DNA of 51,612 bases, from NCBI GenBank assembly GCA_023382455.1, contig JAHDVX010000022.1, positions 1 through 51,612 on the forward strand, in the 5' to 3' direction. Of this stretch, positions 289 through 15,111 are shown in pieces. The position numbers and the translations under genes are program-made. This DNA is from Flavobacteriales bacterium. Lineage in GTDB: Bacteria; Bacteroidota; Bacteroidia; Flavobacteriales_F; PHOS-HE28. Every line of letters begins with the position of its first letter. Within the stretch, counting starts at the first letter, position 1. The notes under the pieces are model-generated. The model saw only the letters and a program-made list of their open reading frames with translations. It was not told where the DNA came from and ran no database searches.

Positions 289-1245
289 ATGCCAACCTTA
301 AGGTTCCCCCTTACGATCGTCGGCCTCTTCTGGCTCGCTTCATCCATCTTCGCTCAATTACGGATTGACCCTTCCGGGAGAATCGGCATTGGCACAACTA
401 TTCCGAATAGTGGATACAAGGTTCACATTAAGGGGGATCTGCTTTTGACAACATATCCCGAGGTGCCGGTATATCCAGGCAATACGTTCATCGAGATGAA
501 GATGAAGGTAGGTAACGGGAATCCAGGAGCCGAAATAGGTACTAATGTGGATAAAATTGCCTTTTGGTCGTCAGAAACAGACTGGAATGAGATTTATGTT
601 GAAAGCGTTTACCAAATGTCAGATAGCTCAAAAAAGATGAACATTCACAAGATACATAATGCACGAGTTATTTTGAATCAATTAAATGGATACAAGTATG
701 AAATAAAGAACCACGGTGATGCAAATATTCCCACCCGCTATGGCCTAATAGCACAAGAAGTGCGTAGAGTTATGCCCGAAGCTACAGATAGTGCAAAGGG
801 TATACTTATGGTCGACTATAATCAAATGATACCCCTTTTGATAGTAGCGCTAAATGCGGAAATGAATAAACTAGATAGTCTTGAAGAGGAGCTTAAGAAG
901 CTTCAAATAAAATTGATTGAGTGCTGTGATGCTCGGTTTGCATCTGATGTTTTGAAGTCTGCGGTGGATAAGGATCTGCCGCATGCCCGATTGTATCAGA
1001 ATAATCCGAATCCCTTTTGGGATCGTACCGTAGTCGATTTTGAGCTGCCACTAACGAGGAGTTCATCCGCCTCAATAATGATTATGGACCTAAACGGGCG
1101 GCTAGAGGCAACATATCCCATTAAGGGTCGGGGACGTGGTTCAATCACCATTGATGGGAAACAGTTAGTGCCGGGCATGTATCTTTATTCACTGATTATT
1201 GATGGTGTTGAAATTGAGACGAGGCGGATGATTATAACTGAGTAA
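289..1245 (+). CDS. Secreted protein with S74-like chaperone domain and T9SS sorting domain
   Basis: 318 residues. Residues 1-22 form a signal peptide (hydrophobic run ending FAQ). Residues about 100-200 resemble the intramolecular chaperone of phage tail spikes (peptidase_S74): an SDSSKK segment stands where the family has SDRRLK, followed by GLIAQEVRRVMPEA, a VDY motif and a Leu/Glu-rich coiled coil (about 180-210). The C-terminus (about 235-318) has the T9SS type A sorting pattern, with LYQNNPNPFWD near its start, a GMYLYSL strand and a final positively charged stretch. The protein should therefore cross the outer membrane by T9SS and be anchored or released at the cell surface. Its substrate or binding partner cannot be told. 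Base composition is much lower in GC than the genes after 4678 (19 of 60 G/C at 601-660 against 37 of 60 at 6541-6600), which suggests an accessory locus. Confidence 0.82.
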   Translation: MPTLRFPLTIVGLFWLASSIFAQLRIDPSGRIGIGTTIPNSGYKVHIKGDLLLTTYPEVPVYPGNTFIEMKMKVGNGNPGAEIGTNVDKIAFWSSETDWNEIYVESVYQMSDSSKKMNIHKIHNARVILNQLNGYKYEIKNHGDANIPTRYGLIAQEVRRVMPEATDSAKGILMVDYNQMIPLLIVALNAEMNKLDSLEEELKKLQIKLIECCDARFASDVLKSAVDKDLPHARLYQNNPNPFWDRTVVDFELPLTRSSSASIMIMDLNGRLEATYPIKGRGRGSITIDGKQLVPGMYLYSLIIDGVEIETRRMIITE

Positions 1246-4677: not shown

Positions 4678-4932
4678 TCAGCCCTCGGTGACCGTGAAGG
4701 CGTACTTTTCCATCACCATGTTGGCGAGCAGCTTCTTGCAGGCCTCGTCCACTTTGGCCTCGGCGGTCTTCTTGTCCTTGGCCTCCACCTGCAGGGTGAT
4801 GTGCTTGCCGATGCGCACGCCGGTGATCTCGGCCAGGCCCAGGTTCTTCATGCTGCCGCTCACTGCCTTGCCTTGGGGGTCCAGCAGGTTGTCGTGCGGC
4901 ATTACATCGATGGAGGCGCGGAAGGTTTTCAT
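4678..4932 (-). CDS. purS: Phosphoribosylformylglycinamidine synthase subunit PurS
   Basis: 84 residues from the ATG at 4932; an upstream in-frame start would add nine residues inside pssA and is less likely. PurS bridges PurQ and PurL in the three-part FGAM synthase of purine synthesis. Family features are the N-terminal strand MKTFRASIDVMPHDNLLDPQG, the GKAV segment, a VRIGKHITL strand and the ACKKLLAN helix. Its start codon overlaps the pssA stop as ATGA (4929-4932), so it should be translated by coupling with pssA. purL and purQ are not in the window. Confidence 0.9.
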   Translation of the reverse strand: MKTFRASIDVMPHDNLLDPQGKAVSGSMKNLGLAEITGVRIGKHITLQVEAKDKKTAEAKVDEACKKLLANMVMEKYAFTVTEG

Positions 4933-5711
4933 GCAGGTTGCGGAAAGAGTTTGCCCCAAAGCGGGCTCAGCAGGTAGGAAATCAGCAGCAAAGGAACGGC
5001 AAGGATGCCGAACAGCAAGGCCAGCACCGTGCCGAGGCCGATCAGCAGGAACACCGTCTCATTGCCTTTCCAACCGCCGTGCTTGAATTTCAGGCTGGGC
5101 AGCGGCACCTCCGATACCATGAGCAGGCCCAGGACCAAGGCGATGGCGAGCGTGATCCGCGGATCGGAGGCCACGGCCATGGTGAACAGGAACCGCAGCC
5201 CCAGGTCGTTGGCCAGGGAGGTGAGGCCGGCGCCGGAGACCACCAGGATGGAAGCCGCCCAGAACAAGCCGTTGGCCGGGGTGGGCAGCCCCAGGAAGCC
5301 ATGCGTTTGGCGGGTATCCACGTTGAACTTGGCCAAGCGCCAGGCCGAGGCCACGCTCAGTACCAGGGCGGCCCCGCCGATGACCCAGTCCGGTTGGGCG
5401 TTCATGGAAAAACCGCTGACGAACCCGGGGGCTTGGTTGAACGCCCCGGTGGTGAACGCCGTCCATAGCGCGAAGGCAGGTGCCACACCGAAGCTCACCA
5501 GGTCCGCCAGGCTGTCCAATTGCTTGCCCAGTTCGGTGCCGCCGCCCAAGGCCCGCGCGGCCAAACCGTCGAATACATCGAACAGGGCGGCGATGAAGAC
5601 CAGCCAACACGCGATCGTCAATTCTCCCGCGGAGATCAGCAGGAGGGAAGCCACGCCGCAGCATAGGTTCGCGGTGGTCAACAGGTCGGGCAGGCGGGGA
5701 ATGCGCGGCAA
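4929..5711 (-). CDS. pssA: CDP-diacylglycerol-serine O-phosphatidyltransferase
   Basis: An inner-membrane enzyme making phosphatidylserine from CDP-diacylglycerol and L-serine, on the way to phosphatidylethanolamine. The CDP-alcohol phosphotransferase signature is complete: DVFDGLAAR, then G, then DSLAD. It has about seven hydrophobic segments. Starts: a TTG at 5711 gives 260 residues beginning MPRIPRLPDLLTTANL, as expected for the family; a TTG at 5777 adds 22 residues with no family character. I prefer 5711, because the box CAACTTCG (5726-5719, reverse) lies seven bases before it, as in other genes here. The stop overlaps purS. It is divergent from porV2. Confidence 0.88.
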   Translation of the reverse strand: MPRIPRLPDLLTTANLCCGVASLLLISAGELTIACWLVFIAALFDVFDGLAARALGGGTELGKQLDSLADLVSFGVAPAFALWTAFTTGAFNQAPGFVSGFSMNAQPDWVIGGAALVLSVASAWRLAKFNVDTRQTHGFLGLPTPANGLFWAASILVVSGAGLTSLANDLGLRFLFTMAVASDPRITLAIALVLGLLMVSEVPLPSLKFKHGGWKGNETVFLLIGLGTVLALLFGILAVPLLLISYLLSPLWGKLFPQPA

Positions 5712-5718
5712 AGCGGGC

Positions 5719-5726
5719 CGAAGTTG
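5719..5726 (-). promoter_or_regulatory. Possible -7 box for pssA
   Basis: CAACTTCG on the minus strand, two mismatches to TAnnTTTG, seven bases before the preferred TTG start. Weak alone, supported by position. Confidence 0.3.
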
Positions 5727-5728
5727 GC

Positions 5729-5736
5729 TATTTTCG
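5729..5736 (+). promoter_or_regulatory. Possible -7 box for porV2-porU2
   Basis: TATTTTCG, one base from TAnnTTTG, 45 nt before the porV2 ATG at 5782. It would drive the porV2-porU2 pair. Confidence 0.35.
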
Positions 5737-5781
5737 GGCAATAATCCGGGGCGCCATCTGTTAGAGGATGCGTCCAATCAA

Positions 5782-6888
5782 ATGATCATGAAGGTTGCAG
5801 GTTCAGGTTCCTGGAGGATGGCGGCGGCGGGTGCGGCCTTGTGCTTTTTGGCCACGGTGCAGGCCCAGGATGCGCCCAAGTACAGCAATGAGTTCCTGAC
5901 CCTGGGCGTGGGTGCCCGGTCGCTGGGCATGGGCTATTCCCATGTGGCCGCGGCCAGCGATGTCACCGCCGGCTACTGGAACCCGGCCGGCCTGCTGGAT
6001 GTGCGCGGCGACCTCCAGGTGGGGGCCATGCACAGCGAGTATTTCGCCGGTATTGCCAAGTACGATTACATCGGCGTGGCCAAGCCGATCGATTCCTCCA
6101 GCGTCATCAGTATTTCCTACCTGCGTTTCGGGGTGGACAATATCCCCAACACCACGGACCTGATCGACAACAACGGCAACCTGGACTATTCGCGCATCAC
6201 CAGCTTCTCCGCCACGGACAACGCTTTCCTGATCAGCTATGCCCGGCACCTGAAGGTGCCCGGCCTGAGCGTGGGCGCCAATGCCAAGGTGATCTACCGC
6301 AGCGTGGGGCCGTTCGCCAAGGCCTGGGGCTTCGGGCTCGATGCCGCGCTGCGATATGACCGTGGTCCTTGGCGGTTCGCCGCCGTGGGGCGCGACATCA
6401 CCGGCACGTTCAACGCCTGGTCCTATTCCCTGAGCGACCGCACCAAGGAGGTCTTCCTGCAGACCGGCAACGAGCTGCCGGTGAACGGCGTGGAGGTCAC
6501 CCTGCCCCGACTGGTGCTCGGTGTGGCGCGCCAGTTCCAGATCGGCTCCAAGGTGGACCTGCTGGCCGAGCTGGACCTGGAGAACACCTTCGACAAGCAG
6601 CGGAACACCTTGATCGCCACCGACACTTGGAGCGGCGACCCCCGCCTGGGCATCGAGGTGGGCTATGCCCGTGTGGTGTACCTGCGCGCCGGGGTGAACT
6701 ACTTCCAGAAGATCGCCGACGTCAACGGCAAGGAATCGCTGAACTTCCAGCCCAACATCGGCGTGGGCCTGAAGATCAAGAGCGTGGCCCTCGACTATGC
6801 CCTGACCAACATCGGGCAGAGCGGCGTGGCGCTCTATTCCAACGTCTTCTCCCTGCGCTTCGACCTGTTCAAGGAGACCACTTCATGA
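5782..6888 (+). CDS. porV2: PorV/PorQ-family outer membrane protein, T9SS-linked (PorV2-like)
   Basis: 368 residues. The signal peptide (about 1-32) ends in VQAQ. The mature part starts with NEFLTLGVGARSLGMG and YWNPAGL, hallmarks of the PorV/PorQ/UPF0164 beta-barrel family; the rest alternates short beta strands. Canonical PorV shuttles T9SS substrates from the translocon to the sortase PorU. This protein resembles the PorV2 branch more than classical PorV because of its N-terminal NEFLTLG motif, and because its partner overlaps it by ATGA (6885-6888). An in-frame ATG at 5788 is an alternative start. The exact PorV/PorV2 assignment is inference from motifs and neighbourhood. Confidence 0.8.
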   Translation: MIMKVAGSGSWRMAAAGAALCFLATVQAQDAPKYSNEFLTLGVGARSLGMGYSHVAAASDVTAGYWNPAGLLDVRGDLQVGAMHSEYFAGIAKYDYIGVAKPIDSSSVISISYLRFGVDNIPNTTDLIDNNGNLDYSRITSFSATDNAFLISYARHLKVPGLSVGANAKVIYRSVGPFAKAWGFGLDAALRYDRGPWRFAAVGRDITGTFNAWSYSLSDRTKEVFLQTGNELPVNGVEVTLPRLVLGVARQFQIGSKVDLLAELDLENTFDKQRNTLIATDTWSGDPRLGIEVGYARVVYLRAGVNYFQKIADVNGKESLNFQPNIGVGLKIKSVALDYALTNIGQSGVALYSNVFSLRFDLFKETTS

Positions 6889-9800
6889 TCCGCTGGCTGC
6901 TCCTTGCCATTGTCGCCTGCCTGGCCCCAGCGGCCTTGGCGCAGGGATACGGCAACGAGTGGATACACTACGACCGCCAGTACTGGAGCTTCAAGATCTG
7001 GCAGGACGGCGTACGGCGCATCGACTCCACCGCCTTGGCCAATGCCGGATTTCCGCTGGGCAGCGTGGACCCAAGGGGCCTGCAGCTCTATGCCCGCGGG
7101 CGCCAGGTGCCCATTTGGGTGCAGGGTGAGCAGGACGGCGTGTTCAATGCCGGGGACTTCATCGAGTTCTACGCGGCCAAGAACGACGCTTGGCTGGACA
7201 GCACATTGTGGGACGACCCGGCCCACATCAACAACCCCTTCTACTCCCTGTACAATGATACCATCCGCTATTACCTCACTTGGGGGCCGCCAGGGGAGGC
7301 GAGCCGGATGGCCAGCCACAGCAGTACGAACTGGGCCGCCTACACCCCGCTGCCCTGGTGCTGGGGAACCCGATTGCTCACCTACCCGAACTACTACCAG
7401 TACGGCAACCGGAAGAATGACGCCTCGCTCTGCACGATCAATGAGGGTGAGGGCTATTCGAACAACGTGCCCATCGTGGCGGTCACCGGTGATCTGGTCT
7501 ATCCCCAGCAGCTCAACGTGGCCGGGCTTTACACGGGGCCTGGTGCACCTCCTTCCACCTACCACCTCTCCATCGTCGGGCTGAACAATCCCGGGGCCAG
7601 CCTGTGCCCGGACCACCACTTGCGCATCCAGCATGGCACCACCCTGCTGGCCGACACGGTGTTCCTGGGATACAAGCTGATCAAGTTGGACCTGCCCGTC
7701 CAGCTTACCTCCGCTGACCTGCCCAACGCCGTGGTGAACATTACCGCTGTACATGACCTGGGGTGTGCCTTCATGCCCCCGGATTACCTGGATGCCACGG
7801 CCCTGTCCTGGCAAAGTATGCGATTCCCGCGGGACTTCGTGCTCACGAGCGGCACCCCGGTGGAAGTCCCGGGCCAGCCGGCAGGGGACAGCATCCACGT
7901 GGCCTTTCCAATGGCCGCGGATGCCGTGGTGTATGCGTGGGCACCCGGTGGACTCCACCGCTTGCTGCCGGAATACGTGAGCAACACGGACCATGTGTTG
8001 CTGCCCCCGAGTAGCCAGGACATGCGCATGCTGGCCGTGCGGCCGGCGAACATGACCCCCGTGACCTCCCTGCAGCCTGTGAGCGGCACCGGCTTCTTCC
8101 CGGACCTCACCTCCGGCCTGCCCGATTCCGCCCTGGTGATCGTGACCCATACCACGCTGATGGCTGCGGCCCAGCAGTATGCTGCCTATCGCCAAACGAA
8201 CCCGCACAACCGCTATAACACATTGCTGGCCGACGTGGAGCAACTCTACGACCAGTTCGGGGGAGGGGTGCGGCAACACCCCTTGGCCATCCGCAACTAC
8301 CTGCGCTACGTGTACGACCATGCACCCTCCAAGCCCGAGGCCCTCTTCCTGATCGGGAAGGGGGTGAAGGCACCGTTGATCAACGTGGTGGCAGGGGACC
8401 GCGGCTACCGCAAGGACCCCGTGGCCAGCGCCGCCTGCCTGGTGCCACCCATCGGTTGGCCTTCCAGCGATATCGCCTTCGGCCTCAACCTCACCGGCGA
8501 CCAACCCGCCTTCCTCTCCGTGCCGGTGGGCCGCCTGGCCGCGCGTACCCCGGCCGATGTGCTGCACTACCTGGCCAAGGTGGATTCCGTGGAGAGCCAG
8601 CCACCCGCCGCCTGGATGAAGAACATCCTGCATTTCCGTGGTGGATCCACCCTCGGTGAATGGATGCAATTCAATGCCGCGCTCGAGAGCTTCCGGGTGC
8701 TGGCCGAGGACACTTCCTTCTTTGGCCATGTCACCAAGTTCACCAAGAACGGTACCGCCGCCATCGAACAAACCGCCCTGGACAGCGTGACCGACATGAT
8801 CGCGAACGGGGTGACCCTGATGACCTTCTTCGGGCACGCCTATGCCGGTGGCTTCGACATCAACATCGACCAGCCTGCCAATTACGACTGGAACGGCAAG
8901 TTCCCCACCATCATCGGCAATTCCTGCTACACGGGCAACCTCCACCTGTTCGATGCCGGCAGCAGCAGCGAGCAGTTCGTGCTGCTGGAAAACGCCGGCG
9001 CCGTGGCCTTCCTTTCCTCCTCGGACGTGGGCCTGGCCAATTACCTACAGCAGTACTCCCGCGATTTCTACCAAAGTTTCAGCCAGGTCAACTACGGCAA
9101 GAGCATCGGCCAGCACATGCGGTATGCCGCATTCAACCAGCTCAATACCGGGACCATCGAATCGTTGAACAGCGCAGGGACCATGTTGCTGCACGGGGAT
9201 CCCACGCTGATCATGAATTCGCCAACCCTGCCCGACCTGGAGGTCACCTTGGCGGATGTGCGCACCATCCCCGCGCAAGTGACCGCCGACCTGGACTCCT
9301 TCCGCCTGCAGGTGGTCTATCGCAACATCGGTCGCGGAACCCACCAGCCCTTCAACGTGGCCGTGGAGCGTACCCTGGTCGCCGAGGGCGTTACACTCCC
9401 CGCCATGGTGCAGCAGGTGGCCATGTCCCATTTCCAGGACACGATCCAGTTCACCCTGCCCGTGAACGTGCCGGCCGGCGGTGTGGGGATCAACGACCTG
9501 CATGTCCGCCTCGACCTGGACCCTGACCAGATCCCGGAGATAGACGACAACAGCAACAATCAGGTGACCTTGCGAACCGTGATCGCCAGCGGCGACCTGC
9601 TGCCGGTGGAGCCGTACAACTTCGCCATCACCAGCGACCCCGCGCCCATGCTGAAGGCCAGCACCGGCGACCCGTTTGCACCGGTGCGCAACTACATCTT
9701 CCAGATCGACACCACCGACCTGTACAACAGCCCCATCATGGAGCAGCACTCCTTGGCGGCCCCGGGCGGGGTGGTGCAGTGGCAACCTTCCTCCATCTAT

Positions 9801-11954
9801 TCGCTGAACGCCACCCAGGACAGCGTGGTCTATTTCTGGCGCTGCACCTTGGACAGTGCCGGGCAGGGCGGCTACAATTGGCATGAGTTCTCCTTCCAGC
9901 ACATCACAGGGAAGCAGGGCTGGGGGCAGGCCCATTTCTTCCAGTTCAAGGAAGATGCCTTCCAACTGATGACCTTCCAACGGCCGGAGCGGAAGTTCGG
10001 CTTCGAGGAAGGCACCCACCAGATCGCCAGCGAGGTGTGGGGCTTGAGCTATTCGCACTGCAATTGGACCAAGGACCTGGAGATCCAGGACAGCCCCGGT
10101 TGCGGCATGACGCCGGCCATGAACGTGGCCGTGGTGGACCCGTTCGACTTCTCCACCTGGGAAACGCTGTACAACGGTGTGGGCCGCTACTACGGCAACT
10201 ACAACAACAATGGGCAATGCAGGCAGCGGCCGGAGAAGTACTTCCTCTTCCGGCAGAACAATGCCACCGAGCTGGATTCCATGGCGTCCATGCTCACCGA
10301 TCATATCCCCGACGGCCACTACGTACTTGTCTTCTCCTACGTGTACATGCTGCAGCAATACCTGCAGAACAGCCCGGCCTGGGGTGCCCTGCAGGCCTTG
10401 GGGGCCAGCAACCTGACCTCCGGCGCCGTGCCGGATACCGTGCCTTACATCTTCTTTTGCCGAAAGGGCGACCTTTCCTCCGTGCAGGAGGTCTGGGGCC
10501 AATCGGCCACGGACCAGATCAGCATGACCGCCTACATGGAGCTCAGCCAGCGGAGCGGCTCGATGGCCGCCCCGCGCAGCAACACCGCATTGTCGTGGGA
10601 CGGCCTGAGCTGGGATATCCGGGCGGGGGCGCCGAACGACAGTACCCGCCTGGAGCTTTGGGGCGTTGGGCCGGCAGGAGCTGAAGTGCCCCTGGCCAGC
10701 TCCACCGACCATGCCGGCGACATGGACCTGCATCCGTTGCTGACGGCCGTGCAATACCCGCAGTTGCGCCTCAAGGGCTACTTCTGGAACGACTCCGCCG
10801 ATGTGCCCGATCCGGCCCAGATACGCCGTTGGCAACTGTTGGGCGTACCCGCCCCGGAGTGTGCCATCGACCCGCCTTCCGGACTGCACCTCCACCTGGA
10901 CAGCTTGTTCCAAGCCCAGCAGGCCGAAGTGATGGTCGCCGTGCGCAACATCGGCCAAGTGCCCATGGACAGCCTGCTGATGACCGCCTGGGTGACCGAC
11001 CGGAACAACCACACCCACAGGGTCCATTACCGCCGCAATGCACCCTTGGCGGTAGGGGCCATCTTGCAGGATACCGTCCGGTTCAGCACCGAGCTGTTCC
11101 CCGGCCCGAACACCTTGGTGATCGAGGCCAACCCCGTGGACACCCTCACCGGCCTGTACGACCAGCCCGAGCAATACCACTTCAACAACATCGCCACCCT
11201 GCGCTTCCTCACCTTGCAGGACAAGGAGAACCCCGTGCTCGACGTGACCTTCGACGGCATCCACATCCTGGACGGCGACATCGTGAGCGCCCGGCCCGAG
11301 ATCCAGATCACACTGGATGATGAGAACCAGACCCTGCTGGTGAACGAACCGGGCGATACCGCCCTCTTCAAGGTGTTCCTCACCGATCCGGCCGGAACCA
11401 CCCGGCGCATCTATTTCCAGGAAGGTGCCCAGCAGGTCTTGGAGTTCGTACCGGCCACCGGGCCCGATAACGTGAGCAAGATCTTCTACCGCCCGGACCT
11501 GGCGCAGGACGGCAACTACAGATTGGCCGTAAGCGCCAGCGACAAGAGCCGCAACAGCAGCGGGGACCGCGACAACAGTGTGAACTTCGAGGTGATCAAC
11601 CGGCCCACCATCACCGAGGTGCTCAACTACCCGAACCCCTTCACCACCTCCACGCGCTTCGTGTTCACCCTCACCGGCAGGGAGGTGCCCACCGCCATGC
11701 GCATCCAGATCATGACCATCGGCGGGCGCGTGGTGCGCGAGGTGTCCCTGAGTGAACTGGGGCCCTTGCACGTGGGGCGCAATGTCACGGCATTCGCATG
11801 GGACGGCACCGATCAGTTCGGGGACCGCCTGGCACGCGGCGTGTACCTCTACCGCGTACTGGCCCAGCTACATGGCCAGGATATTGAATACCGCGACGGC
11901 GGGGCAGGCTCCTATTTCACCAAGGGGGTGGGCAAAATGTACCTGCTGCGCTGA
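6885..11954 (+). CDS. porU2: Gingipain-type C25 peptidase, T9SS sortase PorU2-like
   Basis: 1,689 residues. A signal peptide (1-20, ending ALAQ) is followed by an N-terminal beta domain and a C25 cysteine peptidase domain (about 410-780) with catalytic His651 in FFGHAYAGG and Cys681 in NSCYTG. Several beta-rich adhesin-like domains follow. The last 110 residues hold LNYPNPF and GVYLYRV, a FlgD-Ig/CTD-like fold. PorU removes the C-terminal signal of T9SS cargo and attaches the cargo to A-LPS; C25 proteins partnered with PorV2 are thought to act likewise. Length and the long C-terminal half exceed classical PorU, fitting PorU2. The start overlaps the porV2 stop, so the two should be made together. 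Confidence 0.82.
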   Translation: MIRWLLLAIVACLAPAALAQGYGNEWIHYDRQYWSFKIWQDGVRRIDSTALANAGFPLGSVDPRGLQLYARGRQVPIWVQGEQDGVFNAGDFIEFYAAKNDAWLDSTLWDDPAHINNPFYSLYNDTIRYYLTWGPPGEASRMASHSSTNWAAYTPLPWCWGTRLLTYPNYYQYGNRKNDASLCTINEGEGYSNNVPIVAVTGDLVYPQQLNVAGLYTGPGAPPSTYHLSIVGLNNPGASLCPDHHLRIQHGTTLLADTVFLGYKLIKLDLPVQLTSADLPNAVVNITAVHDLGCAFMPPDYLDATALSWQSMRFPRDFVLTSGTPVEVPGQPAGDSIHVAFPMAADAVVYAWAPGGLHRLLPEYVSNTDHVLLPPSSQDMRMLAVRPANMTPVTSLQPVSGTGFFPDLTSGLPDSALVIVTHTTLMAAAQQYAAYRQTNPHNRYNTLLADVEQLYDQFGGGVRQHPLAIRNYLRYVYDHAPSKPEALFLIGKGVKAPLINVVAGDRGYRKDPVASAACLVPPIGWPSSDIAFGLNLTGDQPAFLSVPVGRLAARTPADVLHYLAKVDSVESQPPAAWMKNILHFRGGSTLGEWMQFNAALESFRVLAEDTSFFGHVTKFTKNGTAAIEQTALDSVTDMIANGVTLMTFFGHAYAGGFDINIDQPANYDWNGKFPTIIGNSCYTGNLHLFDAGSSSEQFVLLENAGAVAFLSSSDVGLANYLQQYSRDFYQSFSQVNYGKSIGQHMRYAAFNQLNTGTIESLNSAGTMLLHGDPTLIMNSPTLPDLEVTLADVRTIPAQVTADLDSFRLQVVYRNIGRGTHQPFNVAVERTLVAEGVTLPAMVQQVAMSHFQDTIQFTLPVNVPAGGVGINDLHVRLDLDPDQIPEIDDNSNNQVTLRTVIASGDLLPVEPYNFAITSDPAPMLKASTGDPFAPVRNYIFQIDTTDLYNSPIMEQHSLAAPGGVVQWQPSSIYSLNATQDSVVYFWRCTLDSAGQGGYNWHEFSFQHITGKQGWGQAHFFQFKEDAFQLMTFQRPERKFGFEEGTHQIASEVWGLSYSHCNWTKDLEIQDSPGCGMTPAMNVAVVDPFDFSTWETLYNGVGRYYGNYNNNGQCRQRPEKYFLFRQNNATELDSMASMLTDHIPDGHYVLVFSYVYMLQQYLQNSPAWGALQALGASNLTSGAVPDTVPYIFFCRKGDLSSVQEVWGQSATDQISMTAYMELSQRSGSMAAPRSNTALSWDGLSWDIRAGAPNDSTRLELWGVGPAGAEVPLASSTDHAGDMDLHPLLTAVQYPQLRLKGYFWNDSADVPDPAQIRRWQLLGVPAPECAIDPPSGLHLHLDSLFQAQQAEVMVAVRNIGQVPMDSLLMTAWVTDRNNHTHRVHYRRNAPLAVGAILQDTVRFSTELFPGPNTLVIEANPVDTLTGLYDQPEQYHFNNIATLRFLTLQDKENPVLDVTFDGIHILDGDIVSARPEIQITLDDENQTLLVNEPGDTALFKVFLTDPAGTTRRIYFQEGAQQVLEFVPATGPDNVSKIFYRPDLAQDGNYRLAVSASDKSRNSSGDRDNSVNFEVINRPTITEVLNYPNPFTTSTRFVFTLTGREVPTAMRIQIMTIGGRVVREVSLSELGPLHVGRNVTAFAWDGTDQFGDRLARGVYLYRVLAQLHGQDIEYRDGGAGSYFTKGVGKMYLLR

Positions 11955-11987: not shown

Positions 11988-13661
11988 ATGAGGCAAAGGC
12001 GTTTGTATCTGGGCTGCGCGATGCTCACCGGCAGCCTGCTCGCCTTGGCCTGGCCGGCCGTGGGCGGGCTCACACCGCTGGTCTTCATCGCTTGGGTACC
12101 GCTGCTGTGGGCGGAGGAGCTTTATGCTCGCAGCCCCAAGGAAGCCCGGCCACGGAACTTCATGCCCTATGTGATGCTCGCCTTGCTGGTGTGGAACCTG
12201 GCCACCACCTGGTGGCTCTTCCACGTCAGCGAGCAGATGGCCACCCGCCTGTTCACGCTTATCGGCCCCAATGTGGGCAACGTGCTGGTGATGTCCGTGC
12301 CCTGGCTCCTCTTTCGCATCGTGCGCAGGAGCTTGGGCGGTGTATGGGCGCGCTGGGCGTTGCTCGTCTTTTGGCTGGCCTTCGAGCGCTTCCACATGCA
12401 CTGGGACCTGAGCTGGCCTTGGCTCACCCTCGGGAATGTGTTTGCCGGGGATATCGCGTGGGTGCAATGGTATGAGTGGACCGGCCACTTGGGCGGCAGT
12501 GTCTGGGTGTGGGCGGCCAATATCCTGGTGCTGCAGGCGGCCCTGCCGGAACGGGCTGCCGGCAAAGGCCGGATCACCCGGCCGATGGTGGCTGCGGTAG
12601 CGGTCATTGCCTTGCCGTGGGCCGCATCGATGGTCCGGTACGCGACGTTCACTGAGCAGGGAAGACCGGAGCAGGTGGTGCTGGTACAGCCTAATATCGA
12701 CCCGTACAAGGAAAAGTTCGGTGCCATTGAACCCATGGACCAACTGGAGCGAATGCTGGGCCAGGCCGCCCCGCTGATGGACAGTGCCACGGCCTTGGTG
12801 GTGATGCCGGAAACCGCCCTCCAGGAACCGACCACACTGACCGAGGAACAAGGGCGCCTGGTGTTCCACGGCCTTTGGGAGAATGACATGACCGACAGCC
12901 GAAGCCTCGCACGCATCCGGTCCTTCCTGCGGGATCATCCCGGTGCCGCCGTGGTGGCCGGCATGTCCGCCGCCAGGCTCTATCCGCCAGGCGCTGAGCA
13001 TCCGGTGTCGGCGCGGGTGCTGGAGGGCATGGACCGCGCCTTCGATGCATACAATGCCGCCTTGCTCGTACGCGGCGATGGCAGTTTCGAATGCTACAAT
13101 AAGAGCAAGTTGGTGCCCGGTGTGGAGCTCATGCCCTTTGAAGAGGTGCTGGGTTCCTTGTCCGGCCTCGCGCTGGACCTCGGTGGCACCACCGGAAGCT
13201 TGGGCACCCAGCAGGAGCGCAGCGTGATGTGGACCGGGGGCAAGCGCCTGGGCCTGGCACCCACTATCTGCTACGAAAGCGTATACGGCGACCACGTGGC
13301 CGCCCACGTGCGCAATGGCGCGGACCTGATCGTGATCATGACCAACGACGGATGGTGGGATGACACGCCCGGCTACAAGCAGCACCTGCTCTACGGGAAG
13401 CTTCGGGCCGTGGAGACGCGCCGCGACGTGGCCCGCAGCGCCAACACCGGGATCTCCGCGTTCATCAATCAGCGCGGCGACATCGTGCAACGGTCCGGAT
13501 GGTGGGTGAAGGCCACCTTGAAGGGGACCGTTCACCTCAGGGATGACCTCTCCTTCTATGCGCGCCACGGGGATTTCATCGGCAAAGGCGCGTATGCCGC
13601 CAGCGTAATCCTGCTCTTGTTGGCGGCGGCAAAGGCCGTGTCCGCTGGAAAAGCTGTCTGA
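11988..13661 (+). CDS. lnt: Apolipoprotein N-acyltransferase
   Basis: 557 residues. Lnt adds the third acyl chain to the N-terminal cysteine of lipoproteins in the inner membrane. Six or so N-terminal membrane segments (about 10-215) precede a periplasmic nitrilase-fold domain. The catalytic triad is visible as Glu275 (MPETAL), Lys372 (YNKSKLVPGVE) and Cys428 (ICYES), followed by MTNDGWW and the RSANTG segment. A last hydrophobic helix is at about 535-550. The length fits the family. It lies 33 nt after porU2 but has its own -7-like box, so it may be read both ways. The downstream gene converges at 13725. Confidence 0.93.
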   Translation: MRQRRLYLGCAMLTGSLLALAWPAVGGLTPLVFIAWVPLLWAEELYARSPKEARPRNFMPYVMLALLVWNLATTWWLFHVSEQMATRLFTLIGPNVGNVLVMSVPWLLFRIVRRSLGGVWARWALLVFWLAFERFHMHWDLSWPWLTLGNVFAGDIAWVQWYEWTGHLGGSVWVWAANILVLQAALPERAAGKGRITRPMVAAVAVIALPWAASMVRYATFTEQGRPEQVVLVQPNIDPYKEKFGAIEPMDQLERMLGQAAPLMDSATALVVMPETALQEPTTLTEEQGRLVFHGLWENDMTDSRSLARIRSFLRDHPGAAVVAGMSAARLYPPGAEHPVSARVLEGMDRAFDAYNAALLVRGDGSFECYNKSKLVPGVELMPFEEVLGSLSGLALDLGGTTGSLGTQQERSVMWTGGKRLGLAPTICYESVYGDHVAAHVRNGADLIVIMTNDGWWDDTPGYKQHLLYGKLRAVETRRDVARSANTGISAFINQRGDIVQRSGWWVKATLKGTVHLRDDLSFYARHGDFIGKGAYAASVILLLLAAAKAVSAGKAV

Positions 13662-13724: not shown

Positions 13725-15080
13725 TCACTCCAAGTGTACTCGTCGGGACTGCCGGTCCGTGTCGTTCACCAGTTGCACCAGGTAGATGCCGGTGGCGATG
13801 TTCCGCTTGTCCACTTGCAAGGTGGTATGGCCTGTGTGGATCGCCTGCGAGGCCCGGGTAAGCAGCAGCTTCCCTTGCGCGTCCGTAAGCACCAGGTCAT
13901 ATACCGCATCCACGGTGGAGGAGACCACCAGGTACAGGAAATCGCCGTCATCCCAGGCATTCACGATGGTGGTGCCGTTGTCCCGGGTGCAACCGGCGGT
14001 GATCGCAGCACTCACCGTGGTGTTGCCGTTGATGTCCGTTTGGCGCAAGCGGTAGTAGGCCATGCCTTGCGGGTCGGCATCCATGAACGAATAGCTCAGC
14101 ATGCCGCTGCTGTTGCCCGCACCCGGCACTGTGCCGATCGCGCTCCAGTCCGCAGCATCCCGGCTACGCTCAATGGTGAAGAACGCGTTGTCCTGCTCGC
14201 TGGCGGTGGTCCAGGTGAGTTTCACCACCTTGCCCTCGCAGGTTCCGTTCCATTCCACCAGTTGGATGGGCAGCGGCAGCAGGCTGTTGGAAAGGGTCCA
14301 ACTCCGGAAGAAGTCGCCGGTGGTCGGCGGAGTGACGCCGCCCACGGTGTTGCCCGTTTGGGTGCCGAGCGGCAGGATGTCATACCACTTGTTGAGGCTG
14401 GAATTGAAGCGCTGCGCCACCAAGTTGCCGTTGGTGGAGTTCAGGCCGGCCGAATTGCCTCCGTTGATCACGCTTTCCGAGGGCTCGAAGCCGAAGGTGA
14501 TGGTCACCCCGGGTGGCGTGGTGTAGGCGTAGGGCGCTTGGCCGGGGTCGATGATCCAGAAGCGGTCGATCGCGTTCGCGGAGTTGTTCACGGTGCCCGA
14601 AGGCATGTCATTCATGTGGGTTACATCGCTCGGGCGGTAGTTGTTGTTGTCCCAACCACTGGGAACGCCCGTGCCGATGGACAGGCTGTTGTACGTGGAG
14701 AAGATCAGCGAACCGGAACCTGCGCCTGCGGAAGTCTTGTTCACCGTGAGCGGAATGGCCGTGCCGGCGACCGTGGTCCCCGTGGCGAACGGAACCATAT
14801 ACGTGCCGGTGGCCGCACCGGTGGCCCAGCGCACCTTGTTTTCTTCCCGTTCACTCTTGATGATGGGCACGTTCGCCGTCACCGCGCCCACCATGGTGAT
14901 GGCATTCGCGTTCGAATTGTCCAGCACCAGGTACGTGCCGCTGTTGGCGGCCGGATTGAAGACGACGAACGGATGCTGGTTCACCGCCGTGCCGGCGCTG
15001 TTGAACACCAGGCGCGCTGCTTGGCCGTAGCTCAAGAAACTTGCCGGAATACCGAAGGCCAGGAGGAGGGGTCGGAGCAT
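13725..15080 (-). CDS. Secreted protein with T9SS C-terminal sorting domain, function unknown
   Basis: 451 residues from the ATG at 15080; a TTG at 15104 would add eight. Signal peptide MLRPLLLAFGIP to SYGQA. The body is beta-rich, Asn/Thr/Gly-rich and has no motif I recognise. At about 265-340 lies the NAFFTIERSRDAADW to YYRLRQTDINGN segment common before sorting domains in Bacteroidota, and the last 80 residues form a T9SS CTD (GKLLL, NIATGIYLVQL, final basic RRVHLE). It should be exported through T9SS to the surface. A good -7 box, TATATTTG (15119-15112, reverse), lies 31 bases before the ATG, which is why I chose that start. Confidence 0.8.
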   Translation of the reverse strand: MLRPLLLAFGIPASFLSYGQAARLVFNSAGTAVNQHPFVVFNPAANSGTYLVLDNSNANAITMVGAVTANVPIIKSEREENKVRWATGAATGTYMVPFATGTTVAGTAIPLTVNKTSAGAGSGSLIFSTYNSLSIGTGVPSGWDNNNYRPSDVTHMNDMPSGTVNNSANAIDRFWIIDPGQAPYAYTTPPGVTITFGFEPSESVINGGNSAGLNSTNGNLVAQRFNSSLNKWYDILPLGTQTGNTVGGVTPPTTGDFFRSWTLSNSLLPLPIQLVEWNGTCEGKVVKLTWTTASEQDNAFFTIERSRDAADWSAIGTVPGAGNSSGMLSYSFMDADPQGMAYYRLRQTDINGNTTVSAAITAGCTRDNGTTIVNAWDDGDFLYLVVSSTVDAVYDLVLTDAQGKLLLTRASQAIHTGHTTLQVDKRNIATGIYLVQLVNDTDRQSRRVHLE

Positions 15081-15111
15081 GGGTAGGGGTATTGGCCGAT
15101 GCAACTATCCC

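Follow-up and report, generated by a model that had tools for sequence, protein, structure and literature searches.

Overlapping genes for a PorV-type barrel and a long C25 peptidase

The stretch of DNA analyzed here, 51,612 nucleotides from a Flavobacteriales bacterium (hereafter the window), encodes an outer-membrane barrel, PorV2, and, in an overlapping gene on the same strand, a C25 peptidase with a long C-terminal part, PorU2 (Table 1). An earlier note made from the sequence alone had described them as a coupled pair and a possible alternative sortase unit of the type IX secretion system (T9SS). Its reading of the locus was borne out: the barrel belongs to the PorV family, its gene shares an ATGA with that of the peptidase, and His651 and Cys681 are intact in the 1,689-residue translation. 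Both families already carry names in NCBIfam, with the word putative attached to each. By score, the barrel is a member of NF052325 (PorVQ2, 'putative type IX sorting system protein PorV2'; 490.6 bits against a cut-off of 325) and the peptidase of NF052324 (PorU_rel_Nterm, 'putative type IX secretion system sortase PorU2'; 609.5 bits against 450). Both remained below the cut-offs of the classical components: PorU2 scored 183.2 bits with the PorU model NF033707 (cut-off 420), and PorV2 scored 33.3 bits with the PorV model NF033710 (cut-off 250) and 69.6 bits, its higher value, with the PorQ model NF033711 (cut-off 220).

The C25 domain of PorU2 is complete (Pfam Peptidase_C25, PF01364, 191.9 bits; cut-off 23), and its His/Cys dyad is invariant in all 32 aligned PorU2 sequences, 29 of them from the window's class, Bacteroidia, and three from other classes. 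Sequence searches against the PDB recovered PorV as the sole match of PorV2 (E 0.012) and, at E values up to 0.1, no match for PorU2. The predicted structure of PorV2 was closest to PorV in the complex with the bound C-terminal domain (CTD) of RemA (Z 32.2, root-mean-square deviation (rmsd) 3.9, 298 aligned residues), with FadL structures following from Z 29.6.

Table 1. Features of the porV2-porU2 locus, in window coordinates (pLDDT, predicted local distance difference test)
Feature	Position	Strand	Description	Evidence
porV2	5782..6888	+	FadL/PorV-type outer-membrane barrel, 368 residues	NF052325, 490.6 bits; model mean pLDDT 88.3
ATGA overlap	6885..6888	+	porV2 stop (TGA) with porU2 start (ATG)	
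porU2	6885..11954	+	C25 peptidase, 1,689 residues, long C-terminal part	NF052324, 609.5 bits; translation
C25 catalytic region	8136..9209	+	PorU2 residues 418-775	PF01364
His651 codon; Cys681 codon	8835-8837; 8925-8927	+	Within the C25 region of porU2	
FAM3/ILEI/POMGnT1-stem-like domain	10011..10550	+	PorU2 residues 1043-1222	Fold and profile
PorU-like C-terminal region	11217..11951	+	PorU2 residues 1445-1689	NF033707 match
pssA-like gene	4929..5777	-	Divergent neighbor of porV2	TIGR00473, 93.4 bits, under the cut-off of 107; synteny
lnt	11988..13661	+	Next gene downstream of porU2	TIGR00546, 224.2 bits; synteny

A second pair beside classical PorU and PorV

The earlier note had proposed searching the rest of the genome for classical porU and porV genes, and both are present. 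The same assembly (51 contigs, 99.95% complete) carries a classical PorU at G000:C10:110571-113957 (1225.8 bits), adjoined by a classical PorV (445.3 bits). Across 30 genomes of relatives, this one included, classical PorU exceeded its cut-off in all 30 and PorV2 in 29. PorU2 is, as had been stated, the longer enzyme: the open reading frame (ORF) of the genome's own classical PorU has 1,374 residues, 315 fewer than PorU2, and those of 12 relatives have 1,283-1,333.

Phylogenetic trees separated both partners from their classical counterparts. A 100/100 branch of a 45-row C25 tree splits PorU from PorU2, and a barrel tree of 83 rows sets off PorV2 by a 100/99 branch and PorV by a 100/100 branch, with PorQ as a third group and an unnamed clade as a fourth; this barrel tree carries a long-branch warning, and the relations among its clades are unsure. 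The classical pair in the genome, together with these splits, identifies PorV2-PorU2 as a second pair of a barrel and a putative sortase.

The fourth barrel clade comprises 13 rows of PorV/PorQ-type proteins apart from PorV, PorQ and PorV2 (L084, from contig G000:C28 of the same genome; L210-L219; L290; L300).

A FAM3-like domain and a PorU-like C-terminus in PorU2

The NF052324 model stops at residue 892 of PorU2, and the FAM3-like domain is situated beyond it. In a predicted structure of residues 895-1689 (mean pLDDT 89.6; predicted template-modeling score (pTM) 0.62), residues 1043-1222 adopt the fold of the POMGnT1 stem (5ggj; Z 17.8, rmsd 2.2, 146 aligned residues, about 16% identity, VIA-align with the predicted model). 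FAM3B (Z 15.5) and FAM3C (Z 14.8) follow, and further rows start at 11.5. The relationship was also recovered by sequence: a profile built from 30 PorU2 relatives retrieved FAM3C, FAM3A, FAM3B and POMGnT1 at E values from 3.5e-7 (FAM3C) to 0.0066, and the Pfam ILEI model (PF15711) matched 20 of the 30 domain sequences at E values up to 1 (best 3.4e-8). The window protein itself stays under the ILEI cut-off (16.7 against 27 bits). ILEI was found in none of 13 whole classical PorU sequences, a control that does not fully match the domain-only scan, since the whole-protein Pfam scan of the window PorU2 had likewise missed the domain. POMGnT1 and the FAM3 proteins are animal proteins, and passages of PMC9802357 describe the POMGnT1 stem and FAM3C as binding N-acetylglucosamine (GlcNAc) and other sugars.

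At the C-terminal end, positions 875-1078 of the classical PorU model NF033707 match nucleotides 11217-11867 of porU2 (E 2.6e-20). A Foldseek search with the whole C-terminal model returned latent PorU first, at a low template-modeling (TM) score, and then strings of immunoglobulin-like domains; aligned with residues 935-1157 of Porphyromonas gingivalis PorU (6za2), the C-terminus gave Z 10.0, but with an rmsd of 12.8 over 205 residues. Its match to the PorZ model is weak (19.9 bits, cut-off 260), and it falls below the type A CTD model TIGR04183 (13.8 against 23 bits). Residues 1445-1689 are probably a T9SS signal, through which PorU2 may also dock on PorV2. Three second PorU2-type proteins (G155:C76:211960-216843, G245:C2:1505989-1510860 and G202:C41:14509-19386) carry a canonical type A CTD at their end in place of the PorU2-type C-terminus, which fits the C-terminus of PorU2 serving as such a signal; these three paralogs look as if they had turned into ordinary cargo.

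Distribution and gene neighborhoods

In a phylum-wide sample of 148 genomes, classical PorU exceeded its cut-off in 103, PorV2 in 28 and PorU2 in 15, and PorU2 homologs that are long but under the cut-off occur in other classes. Among the 37 Bacteroidia of this sample, PorU2 and PorV2 co-occur in 12 genomes and are adjacent in 10; another 16 have PorV2 alone, two have PorU2 alone and seven lack both. PorU2 sequences are 22-71% identical to the window protein, and PorV2 sequences 41-82% identical across families.

Public PorV2 loci were represented by a biased sample of 80, chosen from 571 for their closeness to the window protein. PorU2 is the next gene in 55 of the 78 loci having at least 600 nucleotides downstream, and the exact four-nucleotide overlap recurs in 24 of these 55 (starts set mechanically), so the pairing is not due to chance. 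Organisms with PorU2 next to PorV2 include Cryomorpha ignava, Brumimicrobium oceani, Fulvivirga marina and Fluviicola sp.; in Ancylomarina euxinus and Marinifilum sp. D737, PorV2 is present and PorU2 was not found over its cut-off. C. ignava, B. oceani and F. marina, with PorU2 over its cut-off, also carry another C25 ORF (1,139-1,325 residues), a candidate classical PorU. At loci L050 and L112, porV2 lies between pssA and lnt while porU2 is missing, and neither genome has PorU2 over the cut-off, a pattern that looks like the loss of porU2 alone.

One of the ten adjacent pairs among the Bacteroidia (L018, G144:C3:277109-279757) has a porU2 with two in-frame stops adjoining a porV2 over its cut-off, and represents a decaying copy.

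Joint inheritance with PorV2 and independence from PorU in one family

The inheritance of the pair was followed in one family, sampled with 60 genomes (f15, possibly Chitinophagaceae). Each of the 60 has either both PorV2 and PorU2 (45 genomes) or neither (15; Fisher 1.9e-14), and those with both include a genome in which the genes lie about 60 kb apart (G231) and one in which they are on different contigs, perhaps owing to a contig break (G234). The classical and the second peptidase, by comparison, vary independently: 27 genomes have both, nine PorU only, 18 PorU2 only and six neither (odds ratio 1.0), and among the 54 genomes at least 90% complete the corresponding numbers are 25, nine, 15 and five. 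One genome (G201, 72% complete) has a 354-bit PorU fragment; it counts as PorU2-only in the 27/9/18/6 table and as PorU-positive in the tree and the PorQ counts below. Excluding G201 leaves 17 genomes in which PorU2 occurs without classical PorU, and 15 of these reach a completeness of 90% or more. In PorU2-only genomes with more than ten first-look candidates, ten were scored for PorU; scoring all candidates of the same genomes for PorU2 revealed no extra C25 ORF of classical length under the PorU2 cut-off. PorV exceeded its cut-off in 15 of these 17 genomes, and in 74 of 80 genomes.

The distribution of barrels follows the same division. Among the matches listed, a PorQ-like extra barrel, neither PorV nor PorV2, occurs in at least 29 of 37 PorU-positive genomes, in none of the 17 PorU2-only genomes and in none of the six with neither; by match count the numbers are 36 of 37, one of 17 and two of six. 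Of 20 extra barrels fetched, all from PorU-positive genomes, 18 fall in the PorQ clade and two in another barrel clade. Of 34 scanned barrels, 21 reached the PorQ model and two the broad PorV_fam model at 1e-50, and the PorQ identity of the 18 rests on the fact that as many rows (21) share one clade as match the PorQ model. Taken with the complete concordance of PorV2 and PorU2, these counts indicate that in this family PorQ accompanies PorU, and PorV2 accompanies PorU2.

On a PorV gene tree of 57 family genomes and three outsiders, a gene-tree proxy for the species tree with unsettled bootstrap values, the presence of PorU2 requires 10 changes (at least four forced) and that of PorU also 10 (at least seven forced), so neither presence pattern reflects one event.

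In G205, a genome without PorU2 over the cut-off, a partial PorV2 match with a stop (G205:C184:2860-3399, 263 bits) is consistent with joint decay of the two genes. The single-contig genome G211 (L184, L226) keeps PorV2-PorU2, has neither PorU nor PorV over the cut-offs, and contains one type A CTD match.

Cargo types

The two CTD proteins that the earlier note had counted in the window (289-1245 and 13725-15104) are both type A, just above the cut-off of 23 (24.5 and 26 bits). Type A CTDs occur in 80 of 80 genomes, with every sortase combination, and among the 37 Bacteroidia of the phylum sample 36 have type B CTDs, whether PorU2 is present or not, so mere presence does not discriminate. The numbers of type A matches per genome, in which a value of 62 stands for at least 62, have medians in the family of 53 with both peptidases, 48 with PorU only, 35.5 with PorU2 only and 24.5 with neither.

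Relation to the described attachment complex

The T9SS attachment complex as described from P. gingivalis consists of PorU, PorV, PorQ and PorZ; according to passages of PMC8545088, PorV anchors PorU, and PorZ binds anionic lipopolysaccharide (A-LPS) and PorU. Within these passages, PorZ and PorU are paired with PorV and PorQ 'respectively' in one sentence, and PorU is called PorV-anchored in the following one; a reference title within PMC12618676 names a PorQ-PorZ complex. In Flavobacterium johnsoniae, passages of PMC12618676 assign type A cargo to PorV as shuttle and type B cargo to PorP/SprF-like shuttles, and they make no mention of a PorV2-PorU2 pair. Searches of open-access full texts for PorU2, PorV2, their NCBIfam accessions and second-PorU terms retrieved no relevant paper; within these searches, three findings appear undescribed: the independent inheritance of PorU2, the association of PorQ with PorU, and the FAM3-like domain.

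PorU2 shares with classical PorU (NF033707; 6za2) the C25 domain with its His/Cys dyad and, by sequence, a similar C-terminal region. It differs from it in its greater length, in the FAM3-like domain and in a partner that would be PorV2 rather than PorV. PorV2, in turn, forms a clade separate from PorV and PorQ and often occurs without PorU2.

Interpretation and alternative explanations

We hold it somewhat probable that PorV2 anchors PorU2 and that PorU2 is a second cargo-processing C25 enzyme, perhaps with a glycan-binding part of its own. The T9SS would export PorU2 by way of the enzyme's PorU-like C-terminal domain, and PorV2 would hold it at the surface, by analogy with the anchoring of PorU by PorV. 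There the His/Cys site of PorU2 may cleave, and possibly re-ligate, a subset of cargo that the enzyme would select. The FAM3/POMGnT1-stem-like domain could hold or supply a glycan in place of PorQ-PorZ, a parallel to the role of PorZ in passages of PMC8545088, in which case PorU2 may not need the PorQ-PorZ branch. We give limited credence to an extended form of this proposal, in which the pair is a compact alternative attachment complex: PorU2 would do the work of PorU and PorQ-PorZ together by means of the FAM3-like domain, its own set of cargo would be anchored to a glycan other than A-LPS, and it would be the sole CTD-processing complex in lineages from which PorU and PorQ have been lost.

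Several observations weigh against PorV2-PorU2 as a cargo-processing unit. PorV2 occurs without PorU2 in 16 of the 37 Bacteroidia, and PorU2 without PorV2 in two; on the C25 tree, 2.3 substitutions per site separate PorU2 from PorU; and the PorU2 consensus does not conserve the Arg-Asp stretch of FAM3. Six genomes of the family (G196, G204, G205, G219, G233 and G242; one of them only 79% complete) have 9-59 type A CTD matches with no PorU or PorU2 over the cut-offs, and PorV over the cut-off in five, so type A cargo is no proof of a sortase. The cargo medians given above do not differ clearly between groups, type A CTDs being no more numerous in PorU2-only genomes than in others. On the PorV tree, genomes with PorU2 do not clearly group together (89 of 500 shuffles were as low), which leaves room for transfer or a poor tree, and the independence of PorU and PorU2 counts against a simple replacement of one by the other. 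Replacement had been our first reading of the PorU2-only genomes; it is weakened by this independence and by the six genomes that have type A CTDs and neither peptidase. The note's proposal of an alternative sortase unit accordingly held in part: a second unit is supported by the classical pair, the trees and the joint inheritance in the family, whereas a segregation of CTD types A and B with the two pairs, judged by presence, is not supported, both window CTDs being type A, type A occurring in 80 of 80 genomes under every sortase combination and type B in 36 of 37 Bacteroidia, PorU2 present or not.

Part of this evidence would be explained if PorV2 were a FadL/PorV-type barrel with an independent function, acting as a lipid channel or shuttling other cargo, and PorU2 a dedicated surface peptidase riding on it and processing one partner, without being a general sortase. 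The genomes with PorV2 alone, the pssA-porV2-lnt order at L050 and L112, the near-equality of FadL and PorV folds in the comparison with PorV2 (Z 29.6 against 32.2) and the lack of a clear difference in type A CTD counts between genomes that have PorU2 and those that do not point in this direction; the strict co-loss of PorV2 with PorU2 in the family, the PorU-like C-terminus of PorU2 and a nearest fold that belongs to PorV in a CTD-bound complex argue otherwise, and we judge this explanation unlikely. We regard as improbable that PorU2 is a backup of classical PorU, doing the same job on the same cargo with PorV. The 17 PorU2-only genomes do hold from one to at least 62 type A CTD matches, with PorV present in 15, as a backup would allow, but PorU and PorU2 vary independently, genomes with neither (six of 60) are as common as independence predicts, and PorU2 has an extra domain and partners PorV2, not PorQ, in its occurrence. 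That the pair is a drifting paralog without a needed function is hardly credible: although about ten changes on the PorV tree and one broken porU2 (G144) could be expected from drift, the catalytic dyad is invariant in 32 of 32 sequences at 22-71% identity to the window protein, and PorV2 retains 41-82% identity across families.

If PorV2-PorU2 is indeed a second, separately inherited module with a sugar-binding-like domain, the sharing of cargo between two complexes becomes testable, as does the finishing of cargo in genomes without classical PorU, for which PorU2-only organisms offer a clean setting.

Neighboring genes

Of the 80 public porV2 loci, some of them too short to show such a gene, 50 include a pssA-like gene. 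It accompanies porV2 across lineages (L043-L053, L103-L182), and also at loci without porU2 (L112, L156 and L157).

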